Shown: positions 1,054-3,319 of the stretch, piece after piece
Position numbering within the stretch: position 1 is the first letter of the stretch
How the letters are laid out: every line of letters starts with the position of its first letter
NCBI RefSeq assembly: GCF_000020145.1
Contig: NC_010644.1
Location: 620,001 to 684,000 of the forward strand
Direction: 5' to 3'
Length of the DNA: 64,000 nucleotides
Source of the DNA: Elusimicrobium minutum Pei191
GTDB lineage: Bacteria > Elusimicrobiota > Elusimicrobia > Elusimicrobiales > Elusimicrobiaceae
Translations under genes and position numbers: made by a program
Notes under the pieces: generated by a model
Databases searched by the model: none
The model's input: only the letters and a program-made list of their open reading frames with translations
Told to the model about the DNA's origin: nothing

Positions 1054-1770
1054 CTATTGCAGTCTTAAAAAGTATTTTACAAATCCTAAAACTTCAACAT
1101 CTTCAAGATTTGCTTTTATTTCTTTTTTTCCGCTTTTTAGTACTATTTCCTTATCGTTAAAAATAATTTTTTTTATACAATATTTTTTGTTAAATTTTAC
1201 AAGAGCGGTTTTCCCGGTTATAGCTTTATCGGCAGGCATAATTACGGCGTATTCGCCTTCTTTAGCGTATGCGTAAACCTCTCCGCTTTCTATTTTTAAT
1301 GCAAAAGGCGTTTTATCATCAGGGCTGTCTATAAGCATGGGCAAATACTCATCTACCGAAGAATAGCTTGGGTAAATAAAAAATTCTTCTTTCGCCTCTC
1401 CCGTAACGGCTATATGTTTTGGCATAAAAACGTCTATTTTTGTTTTATTTGATAAAGAGCTGGTAGAATACTCTTCCTGTTCGTCGCTGACGCCAAAACT
1501 CATTTTTTTTGTAATACTTTCTATGGCGTATAAAAGCGCGCGGGTTTTTTCTTCTAAATTTTCACCGGTTTCAATGTCATCATCAAGCTCTTGGACGGTT
1601 ATTCCGAATTCTGAGGCAAGTTTTTCCAAATTTTCCGGTAAGGGCCTGGTTTTTCCTTTTACCCACTGTGATATAGCGCTTGAATCCGAAATCCCTATTC
1701 TTTCTGCAAGTTTAACTTTTGTTATTTTCAGCCTTTTGATATTAGCGGCTATTTTTTCTCCCATTTTCAT
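1054..1770 (-). CDS. XRE-family repressor with S24/LexA-like C-terminal domain
   Basis: 238 residues, starting at the ATG at 1770 because AGGAG (complement of 1775-1780) sits five bases upstream; a longer reading from 1797 lacks such a site. Residues 1-60 form a Cro/CI-type helix-turn-helix (KLAERIGISDSSAISQWVKG). The last ~100 residues resemble the S24 peptidase fold of LexA/CI repressors (ALKIESGEVYAYAKEGEYAV, then TALVKFNKKYCIKKI). A Lys in the expected strand is visible, but the usual D/G-SM serine box is degenerate (IESGE) and no clear Ala-Gly cleavage site is seen, so self-cleavage in response to DNA damage is uncertain. It diverges from the 2065-2761 genes, with palindromic sites lying between them; this is the arrangement of a phage or mobile-element master repressor. 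Confidence 0.8.
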   Translation of the reverse strand: MKMGEKIAANIKRLKITKVKLAERIGISDSSAISQWVKGKTRPLPENLEKLASEFGITVQELDDDIETGENLEEKTRALLYAIESITKKMSFGVSDEQEEYSTSSLSNKTKIDVFMPKHIAVTGEAKEEFFIYPSYSSVDEYLPMLIDSPDDKTPFALKIESGEVYAYAKEGEYAVIMPADKAITGKTALVKFNKKYCIKKIIFNDKEIVLKSGKKEIKANLEDVEVLGFVKYFLRLQ

Positions 1771-1820
1771 AGAAGCTCCTGGTTTTTTATATGGCACATT
1801 AATCTCTGCTTAATCAAATC

Positions 1821-1837
1821 GTATCAATATTTTAGCA
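1821..1837 (-). promoter_or_regulatory. Predicted leftward repressor promoter with operator half-site
   Basis: Read on the minus strand there is an extended -10 (TGCTAAAAT, 1829-1837). The GTATCA half-site (1821-1826) falls at the expected start point. The ten bases AATCGTATCA at 1817-1826 are repeated exactly inside the large palindrome (1881-1890), suggesting the repressor also controls its own gene. No good -35 is seen. Confidence 0.45.
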
Positions 1838-1854
1838 TATTTTAGGTCTGAAAA

Positions 1855-1883
1855 TTGACAATTTAAGACAAATCTGATACAAT
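1855..1883 (+). promoter_or_regulatory. Strong sigma70-type rightward promoter
   Basis: TTGACA (1855-1860), a 17-base spacer, then TACAAT (1878-1883). The start point would be near 1890. The -10 box is inside the palindrome at 1870-1895, so a bound repressor would block it. Confidence 0.75.
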
Positions 1884-1895
1884 CGTATCAGATTT
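1870..1895. promoter_or_regulatory. Perfect 11-bp palindromic operator
   Basis: AAATCTGATAC, four bases AATC, then GTATCAGATTT: an exact inverted repeat covering the -10 and start of the rightward promoter. Size and position fit a dimeric HTH repressor, most simply the adjacent XRE protein. It is not a terminator, since no T-run follows and it sits at a promoter. Confidence 0.75.
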
Positions 1896-1928
1896 GATTC
1901 AGCTAAAAGCTGATATTCAAGTTAAATC

Positions 1929-2050
1929 AAAGGGTCTTTTGCAGGCCAAGCTGTTATAAAGCAAATTTATACCGGCGAGACGGCTCTCCTAACCTCCGGG
2001 ACATCCCGGAAGCCGCGAAAAAGGCGGTATCTCCCTGCAAAAGCCCCTTA
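1929..2050 (+). ncRNA. Nested structured RNA / 5' leader, class unknown
   Basis: Downstream of the rightward promoter the transcript can fold into a long closed structure. The outer stem pairs 1930-1945 with 2034-2049 (15 pairs, one mismatch). Inside it ATACCG (1969-1974) pairs with CGGTAT (2025-2030), CGGCT (1981-1985) with AGCCG (2011-2015), and TCCGGG with CCCGGA around an ACAT loop (1995-2010). The fold ends 15 bases before the start codon at 2065. I do not recognise it as a known riboswitch. It could be a leader controlling the two small genes, or a separate small RNA. Confidence 0.55.
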
Positions 2051-2064
2051 ATAAGAGGGTAACA

Positions 2065-2352
2065 ATGGGGGGAAAACAAAAAAACCAAAATACCGCTATA
2101 GGTGCGGACTTATATTTCAGCCTTTATAAATTGCTTAAAAGAAGGCATGCTCTTTTACCGTTGGTTAAAGAGTTTGAACAAATAGACAGCACCATAAAAA
2201 CTTATTTTGCAGGCGTGCCTAGAATTGTTATCGGAGATTACAGTGTAGAAGGACAATGGGAAGAGGAGCCTGAAGGGAGTTTTGTTAATAAGGCAAAAAA
2301 TGATATAAAACGGCAAAAAATTTGGACGGTTAATATTAAACAGGTTAAATAG
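2065..2352 (+). CDS. Small protein of unknown function in regulated island
   Basis: 95 residues, start ATG at 2065 with GAGGG five bases upstream. I do not recognise the family. It is soluble, with a basic helical stretch (LYFSLYKLLKRRHALLPLVK), a central IVIGDYSVEGQWEEEPEG segment and a basic C-terminus. It is the first gene of the transcript predicted from the promoter at 1855 and follows the structured RNA. Being opposite a phage-type repressor suggests a mobile-element, DNA-damage or regulatory role; nothing in the sequence proves it. Confidence 0.6.
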   Translation: MGGKQKNQNTAIGADLYFSLYKLLKRRHALLPLVKEFEQIDSTIKTYFAGVPRIVIGDYSVEGQWEEEPEGSFVNKAKNDIKRQKIWTVNIKQVK

Positions 2353-2362
2353 AGGGGGAAAG

Positions 2363-2761
2363 ATGGATTATTTAACAGCAAGATGGTTCTTAGTAAAACA
2401 AATGCCTAAAAATAAGCTTAACGCTTTTCATTTGATGGAAAAATCGGTTTATAACTATAGTTTTGACAGTTATAAATTATTTAAAGAAAGTAAGGTTGTG
2501 GCACCGTTGTGGTGGCAAAGCGCAACAGCTTTTTTAAGTAAGGAAAATGAGGGTTTTTGGCGTATTTGTTCAAATCGGGAAAAGCGTTTGGAAATAGAAG
2601 AATTTGCTTTAACGGTAAGAAGCATTTTAAGAAATAAAAAAATAGACGCGGCGGAACTTTTTAACAATATTAAACTTATGCATGAGTGTGATTTGCTTAT
2701 CAATAACATATCTTTAGCTGATCCTTTACCTTCCTTATCCTGCCTTACATTACCCTCCTAG
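2363..2761 (+). CDS. Small protein of unknown function, second in island
   Basis: 132 residues, ten bases after the previous stop, with a strong GAGGGGGA ribosome-binding site, so co-translated in one operon. No known domain is recognised. It is rich in aromatic and charged residues, with no signal peptide or membrane segment. A helical central part (EKRLEIEEFALTVRSILRN) and a Leu-rich tail are the main visible features. The operon stops at the terminator at 2776. Confidence 0.6.
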   Translation: MDYLTARWFLVKQMPKNKLNAFHLMEKSVYNYSFDSYKLFKESKVVAPLWWQSATAFLSKENEGFWRICSNREKRLEIEEFALTVRSILRNKKIDAAELFNNIKLMHECDLLINNISLADPLPSLSCLTLPS

Positions 2762-2775
2762 TCACGGGCATAAGA

Positions 2776-2811
2776 ACAGGGCCGCTTTTTAAAGGGGCCC
2801 TGTTTTTTTTA
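2776..2811. terminator. Terminator ending the small-gene operon
   Basis: ACAGGGCC (2776-2783) pairs with GGCCCTGT (2796-2803), followed by a T-run. An A/T-rich flank on the other side may also help stop the convergent pilin transcript (2828-3319). Confidence 0.85.
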
Positions 2812-2827: not shown

Positions 2828-3319
2828 TTAAAAATTCCAAACGCCGCTTGTGCCGGAATCTTTTCCCCCGGCGGAAAGGCAAAGTTTTTTACCTTTATCG
2901 CTAAAAGTGTTTATTATACCCGCGTGTATGTTGCATGTTCTGGAATTTTTAGTCATATCCCACCAAATATAATAATCAACTTTCTCTCCCGCGCTGTTAA
3001 GGCGGAAAATTCTTATAGCGGGAACAATGGCATTTTTACCGTCAAGCTGCATTGTAAAGTTGTTACTTGTGGCCCAGGCGCCGTTTATTGTATATCCGCC
3101 CGGAACTTCAATGTCAAGTTCATCAAAAGATGTAGGGTATTCGCCCGTTTGGAGGAAATATCTTTGGCTTGCGTCAACAAAATTTTTGCCTACTATTAAC
3201 GCTTCGGACATACGGGATTTTTCCACGGCGTTTGTATATTGCGGCAACGCTATGGCGGCAAGTATGCCTATAATTAAGACTACCACTAAAAGTTCTATTA
3301 AAGTAAATCCTTTTTTCAT
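2828..3319 (-). CDS. Type IV pilin-like prepilin (orphan)
   Basis: 163 residues starting MKKGFTLIELLVVVLIIGIL with the class III prepilin cleavage site after Gly4 and Glu5 retained. The alpha1 region (to about residue 35) is nearly identical to the other scattered pilins; the rest is distinct, with a D-loop-like cysteine pair (TCNIHAG...KKLC) and a Gly/Ser-rich end. It lies 29 bases downstream of the ABC-F gene on the same strand and may be read with it or from its own promoter; the ribosome-binding site is weak (AAGCGAT). It is likely a pilus or pseudopilus subunit exported through the inner membrane and assembled by the operon at 7462-20058. Confidence 0.87.
   Translation of the reverse strand: MKKGFTLIELLVVVLIIGILAAIALPQYTNAVEKSRMSEALIVGKNFVDASQRYFLQTGEYPTSFDELDIEVPGGYTINGAWATSNNFTMQLDGKNAIVPAIRIFRLNSAGEKVDYYIWWDMTKNSRTCNIHAGIINTFSDKGKKLCLSAGGKDSGTSGVWNF

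Follow-up and report, generated by a model that had tools for sequence, protein, structure and literature searches.

A conserved structured RNA beside a phage-type repressor in Elusimicrobium minutum is complementary to a distant capsid-operon leader and may be a natural trans-acting antiterminator

The window analyzed here, 64,000 nucleotides of DNA from Elusimicrobium minutum Pei191, spans bases 620001-684000 of a genome that consists of one contig with 1,643,562 bases. Close to its start lies a compact module (Table 1): the gene of an XRE/S24-type repressor diverges from a promoter that is overlapped by an operator, and this promoter is followed by a structured RNA, the focus of this study, and by the genes for two small proteins, p95 and p132. 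Only the letters of this DNA and its open reading frames (ORFs) had been available to a first-pass annotation, which proposed a lysogeny or SOS switch whose cargo was limited to an RNA fold and two proteins of no recognised family.

Table 1. Features of the repressor-RNA module and their positions in the window.
Feature	Position	Strand	Basis or remark
Repressor, XRE/S24-type, 238 amino acids	1054..1770	-	HTH_3 and Peptidase_S24 matches, orthologue start
Operator half-site AATCGTATCA, repressor side	1817..1826	unstranded	Recurrence of inverted-repeat half
Promoter TTGACA-17-TACAAT for the RNA/p95/p132 transcript	1855..1883	+	Also kept in relatives
Operator, 12-bp inverted repeat across the -10	1869..1896	unstranded	Core TGATAC-N4-GTATCA
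P0 hairpin, predicted transcript 5' end	1890..1923	+	Fold z-scores, compensatory 3' arm
New structured RNA	1930..2049; model core 1935-2044	+	P1, P2, P3, P4, P5
P3 hairpin GAGA-CGGC-UCUC plus C, invariant	1977..1989	+	GACGGCUCUCC = 1979-1989
p95, conserved protein	2065..2352	+	Long helix and three strands
p132, conserved all-helical protein	2363..2761	+	Found in 10 genomes
Likely intrinsic terminator of the module (ACAGGGCC ... GGCCCTGT TTTTTTT)	2776..2810	+	By inspection; a simple scanner did not list it

The divergent repressor and promoter were both present as first described. HTH_3 was matched by the repressor with an E of 5e-10 and Peptidase_S24 with 6e-5, the latter at a bit score slightly below the Pfam cut-off, and its ATG at 1770 agreed with the starts of orthologues. 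In the promoter, TTGACA (1855-1860) and TACAAT (1878-1883) are separated by 17 nucleotides (nt), and 11 of the 12 bases are those of the consensus. The arms of the inverted repeat (1869-1880 and 1885-1896) are 100% complementary around a 4-nt spacer; the repeat is thus exact and lies over the -10 as had been noted, but its length is 12 bp rather than 11 bp. The reported recurrence of one half on the repressor side was also found. Since the core occurs only once in the 1.64-Mb genome, and promoter and operator are conserved in relatives, the repeat is beyond chance. Among these relatives, the operator consists of three nearly invariant half-sites (TGATAC/GTATCA/TTGATAC) over and past the -10; the third reads TTGATTC (1894-1900) in the window. 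The position of the active-site Ser of LexA is occupied by Glu in the window repressor, and by Ser in none of the 11 aligned orthologues. Because the S24 nucleophile is absent from all of them, though the Lys is retained, the alignment makes classical LexA-like (SOS) autocleavage unlikely. The earlier proposal therefore stands as a phage-derived repressor-operator switch, but its SOS part is weakened. In a related genome (G069; L154:6806-10093), an S24 repressor with Cys at the expected nucleophilic Ser (GSCMEP) was observed.

The RNA fold seen in the first reading is real: the leader had a z of -3.8 for 1890-2075, and the structure was conserved and covarying in 15 genomes. The RNA (~110 nt) comprises five helices: a closing stem P1 (11 pairs), a variable P2, an invariant P3, P4, and P5 (GCCGC-A7-GCGGC), and the invariant hairpin GAGACGGCUCUCC forms its centre. 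In the alignment, 94.6% of cells were paired, with two-sided changes at 15 of 28 pairs overall and at 10 of the 11 pairs of P1, counts that are biased toward the model structure to which the alignment was fitted. The covariation value was 0.398 (0.09 or less in slid controls), and the structure was far above shuffles; judging from the slid controls and from individual folds made without constraint, this bias is unlikely to be the cause. The preceding P0 hairpin had z values of about -3.2 to -6.5 in 15 genomes, and its 3' arm varies in relatives so as to preserve pairing. Between species pairs, the identity of the RNA was 72-97%, far above that at fourfold-degenerate sites of p95 and the repressor (only about 30-70%), and the comparison thus shows strong selective constraint on the RNA.

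When 341 genomes of the phylum were searched with a covariance model (R1), 15 of the 16 module RNAs were recovered at E below 1e-16, and the RNA of the remaining genome (G089) is a reduced version with 19 bits. The only other match below 0.01 (in G114) was rejected, being inside a respiratory-chain gene. No Rfam family was matched by the window region at E <= 5 or by its relatives at E <= 1; by these comparisons, the RNA is a new family. Viral contigs with the 14-nt motif gave model scores at the level of chance, and motif matches in non-Elusimicrobia genomes were rejected at under 20 bits. A search for targets of the motif in rRNA or tRNA D-arms gave nothing beyond chance, and the idea that the CUCUCC segment sequesters a Shine-Dalgarno sequence in cis was set aside, with 4-6 pairs at most by inspection.

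By relatives of p95, the module was found in 16 of 90 genomes of the family (p132 in 10), so that the arrangement which the first-pass annotation had suggested looking for does recur in Elusimicrobiaceae. The order was the same in all 16: divergent repressor, promoter with operator, folded leader, p95, and sometimes p132. All named relatives that carry the RNA belong to Elusimicrobiaceae or Elusimicrobia, and many are from gut or rumen; they are mostly metagenome assemblies, and the module of one (G067) is interrupted by a contig end.

The operator TGATACNNTYGTATCA was searched in 17 genomes, and exactly one extra site appeared in each of 13 genomes of the sister genus (the genus with the most module copies), with none for the reversed-pattern control. 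This second operator overlaps a TTGACA-17-TACATT promoter before the gene for an HK97-type capsid protein (PF05065, E 9e-51), which is followed by genes for head-tail connector and neck proteins. An orthologue of the capsid gene is present in all 16 module genomes, and in the window host it lies 556 kb away (G000:C1:1177209-1178408). The absence of phage structural genes, claimed at first, is thus correct for the adjacent genes but not for the chromosome, and the limited cargo can no longer be maintained: the operator repeats over a capsid-tail operon in the 13 relatives, and a hairpin of the RNA is complementary to the capsid leader in 16 of 16. Specifically, GGGAGAG(U/C)CGUC or a near variant of it is present in every one of the 16 leaders and is complementary to the invariant GACGGCUCUCCC of the RNA. 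In the sister genus, the complementary motif comes directly after the operator. The capsid leader of the host begins with GGAGAGUCGUC, right after a TTGACA-17-TATACT promoter without the operator, and the same arrangement (motif after promoter, operator absent) was found in G068 and G089. In host coordinates, GACGGCUCUCC is complementary to the capsid leader at G000:C1:1178540-1178550 (minus strand), while the RNA is encoded apart at G000:C1:621935-622044.

The pairing of RNA and leader comprises 10-12 contiguous pairs in most genomes, with duplex energies of -16 to -25 kcal/mol, and at most 2 of 500 shuffles were as good in 13 of the 15 leaders tested. The best target in about 116 kb of host DNA, the RNA gene itself aside, was the capsid leader. 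Among the 90 family genomes, 16 had both RNA and capsid gene, none the RNA only, five the capsid gene only, and 69 neither. The comparison also shows vertical inheritance, and the distances of p95 and capsid were correlated (r = 0.89, 0/5000 permutations). On these grounds, the pairing of RNA and leader is well supported. That the RNA sits directly between the promoter and the start of p95 in all module genomes would also suit a leader acting in cis only, on p95 and p132, through translation or a put-like modification of RNA polymerase, with the match to the capsid leader incidental; the put RNAs of HK022 are likewise located just past early promoters (PMC9378689). However, the invariant part of the RNA is the very part that is complementary to the capsid leader, the motif in that leader persists across genera, even where there is no terminator, RNA and capsid cluster co-occur, and the short p95 operon leaves little for processive antitermination in cis. 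We therefore regard an action in cis only as improbable.

Twelve of the 16 leaders fold into an intrinsic terminator with a U-run, at -17 to -29 kcal/mol (-20.4 kcal/mol in the host), and the base of its 5' arm is formed by the complementary segment. When this segment was marked as occupied, -4 to -14 kcal/mol was left to the leader, a loss of about 10-20, and the duplex with the RNA had -19 to -25 kcal/mol in these 12 genomes. Since the paired segment is the base of its 5' arm, the terminator would be prevented by pairing. In the leaders of the remaining subclade (L271, L235, L236, and L239; genomes G072, G075, G082, and G084), an AT-rich hairpin touching the ribosome-binding site replaces the terminator. 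In these four genomes, the RNA may work at the level of translation, or the control may be less strong. Retention of the motif after the terminator was lost points to the pairing with the RNA as what is selected.

From these features, the locus may be viewed as the control centre of a domesticated phage, the head, tail, and lysis genes of which are held elsewhere in the chromosome. The repressor would keep the module promoter off, and its relief, probably not via RecA-driven autocleavage, would yield the structured RNA as the leader of the p95/p132 transcript. The P3 hairpin, via the stretch given in Table 1, would then pair with the very start of the capsid-operon transcript as it is being made, and by blocking the terminator allow RNA polymerase to proceed into the genes for capsid, tail, and lysis. 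In the sister genus, where the repressor site is found on the capsid promoter as well, this would be a double lock; in the host, the RNA is the only visible link because the capsid promoter is without the operator site. The pairing itself is neutral as to sign, and natural antisense RNAs acting on leaders, such as plasmid attenuators, often repress (PMC4878617); the RNA could repress the capsid transcript or target it for cleavage, or the terminated leader fragment could act as a sponge for the RNA. Such an opposite sign appears unlikely: pairing should relieve termination, because the site coincides exactly with the terminator's 5' arm, and one repressor site common to the promoters of RNA and capsid in the sister genus fits joint induction better than mutual inhibition. 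We infer trans action of the RNA, an activating sign, and particles that would work as a gene transfer agent (GTA).

The particle cluster of the host extends from 1178408 down to about 1169834 and encodes capsid, connector, adaptor, tail terminator, major tail protein, a short tape measure, hub-type proteins, and endolysin; members without a label were assigned by position and homology to viral contigs. The ORFs of the host and G088 clusters included none that was recognised as an integrase or replication gene. The cluster was colinear in every genome examined, and feoB and ankyrin-repeat neighbours are common to host and G088. Purifying selection on the capsid is seen from 69-83% amino acid identity at 36-39% fourfold identity (host vs G068, G088, and G089). 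In related phage contigs, terminase, portal, and protease/capsid are in the usual order (roles by inspection). Capsid orthologues in standard phage order, with the portal (and terminase) upstream, were observed at L289 and L290 (G069 and G070) and in viral contigs (L294-L298); these loci are likely an outgroup for the domesticated cluster. By these features, the cluster looks like a domesticated particle such as a GTA, a label that is unproven; sequence alone cannot prove a GTA (review PMC11841831). In the open-access literature, no report of a GTA in this phylum was found, only passing mentions.

As first annotated, p95 and p132 belong to no recognised family (no match in Pfam, PHROG, NCBIfam, or PADLOC); they are conserved proteins and not pieces of a housekeeping gene. 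Structure searches with both gave weak matches only, and p132 matches in genomes of genus g2 were rejected as a PpiC-type protein. The predicted fold of p95 has one long helix and three strands (predicted local distance difference test score, pLDDT, 73), and in a profile comparison (P 4.5e-8) p95 matched the C-terminal domain carried by a Cas4-like phage exonuclease of G243 (L175:505-1488; PD-(D/E)XK, identified by PHROGs), which suggests that p95 is a free-standing accessory domain of Cas4-like nucleases. In G069, a p132-type gene has on one side an S24 repressor whose S24 domain is well matched (Pfam E 4e-21) and on the other a Cas4-like exonuclease, after which comes a replication-initiation protein; this region (L154:6806-10093), with a strongly folded leader (z -4.9), is a less reduced form of the module region. 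On the basis of this gene context and of the likeness to the exonuclease domain, p95 and p132 were probably derived from phage early regions. The initial suggestion of a domesticated module agreed with these results, while a defence module was unsupported: no effector of a known defence family was recognised, only generic HTH matches having been obtained.

The same adjacency of a p132-type gene to exonuclease and replication genes, together with the lack of terminase and portal in the cluster, would be expected if the locus were a remnant of prophage control and the cluster a decaying or structural-only relic, with residual conservation. This is very improbable in view of the strong purifying selection on RNA, p95, repressor, and capsid, with synonymous sites near saturation, of the intact ORFs of p95 and capsid in nearly all genomes, and of the gene order and neighbours kept across genera.

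In our preferred reading, to which we give a probability of roughly 0.7, the RNA is a natural antiterminator that works in trans on a GTA-like particle cluster passed on by vertical descent. Several observations weigh against it. Sequences of similar duplex energy exist elsewhere, so that energy alone is not unique to the site in the genome; the case for the target rests on position and on conservation at two unlinked loci. The duplexes of G075 and G082 are weak, being equalled by 14-16 of 500 shuffles, and the seed sits in a hairpin that has to open. The p value for the co-occurrence of RNA and capsid (Fisher, 9e-14) ignores relatedness, and since the genomes are related there are about four independent lineages, not 16. 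One genome that is 99% complete (G085; L288 and L250) has the capsid operon, operator, and motif, and neither module RNA nor p95 was detected in it. The G072 subclade keeps the motif without a convincing terminator. Finally, terminase, portal, and protease were not found in the cluster, nor were terminase and portal found by tblastn in the stretches searched, which were not the whole genome.

The module has type IV pilin genes and ordinary housekeeping genes as its nearest neighbours on both sides. The flanks vary by genus (by inspection uvrA-, ackA-, epimerase-, and hydE-like) and are largely stable within the sister genus; because of this pattern, the module appears to have shifted between sites over deep time and is nowadays inherited. 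The pilin genes at 511-954 and 2828-3319 of the window have identical leader peptides, and pilin genes of this type were also seen beside other loci inspected.

Phages and GTAs switch on particle genes with protein antiterminators, and C4 and related phage immunity RNAs act negatively. To our knowledge, an RNA that dissolves a transcription terminator in trans is known only from man-made devices, and in the open-access literature no natural trans RNA relieving an intrinsic terminator was found. These devices are the small transcription activating RNAs (STARs), synthetic RNAs that bind in trans the upstream region and the 5' half of an intrinsic terminator in a leader, and thereby permit elongation (PMC5648800, PMC10465534). 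The geometry is the same as that of the window RNA and the capsid leader; STARs are designed parts, whereas the window RNA is natural, folds into five helices with a short seed of 11-12 nt inside a hairpin, and is controlled by a phage repressor. In the GTA of Caulobacter, RogA represses the GafY/GafZ operon, the product of which antiterminates a distant particle cluster (PMC11150451). The circuit (repressor, small regulatory operon, and antitermination of a distant phage-derived cluster) is alike, but the antiterminator of Caulobacter is a protein riding with RNA polymerase, and that of the window is most likely an RNA. The put RNA of HK022 is also structured and just past an early phage promoter (PMC9378689), but works in cis, on the very polymerase by which it was transcribed, and has two stem-loops in about 70 nt rather than five helices. 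C4 antisense RNA (Rfam RF01695) and related immunity RNAs are similarly phage-encoded antisense RNAs beside a phage regulatory region, whereas the window RNA and its relatives are without a match in Rfam. Small RNAs that block Rho relieve premature termination in a leader in trans as well (review PMC6582626), but this termination is Rho-dependent, while an intrinsic terminator and a dedicated target are found here. On balance, we favour the view that late-gene antitermination in a domesticated GTA-like phage of Elusimicrobiaceae is carried out by a natural counterpart of STARs.

The reading makes a sharp prediction: 11-12 base pairs joining two loci that are 556 kb apart. If it is true, the switch for the particle genes would be an RNA pairing with the terminator itself, a logic met so far mainly in synthetic biology, and the finding would add a regulatory RNA family with its target, and a candidate GTA, to a poorly studied gut phylum.
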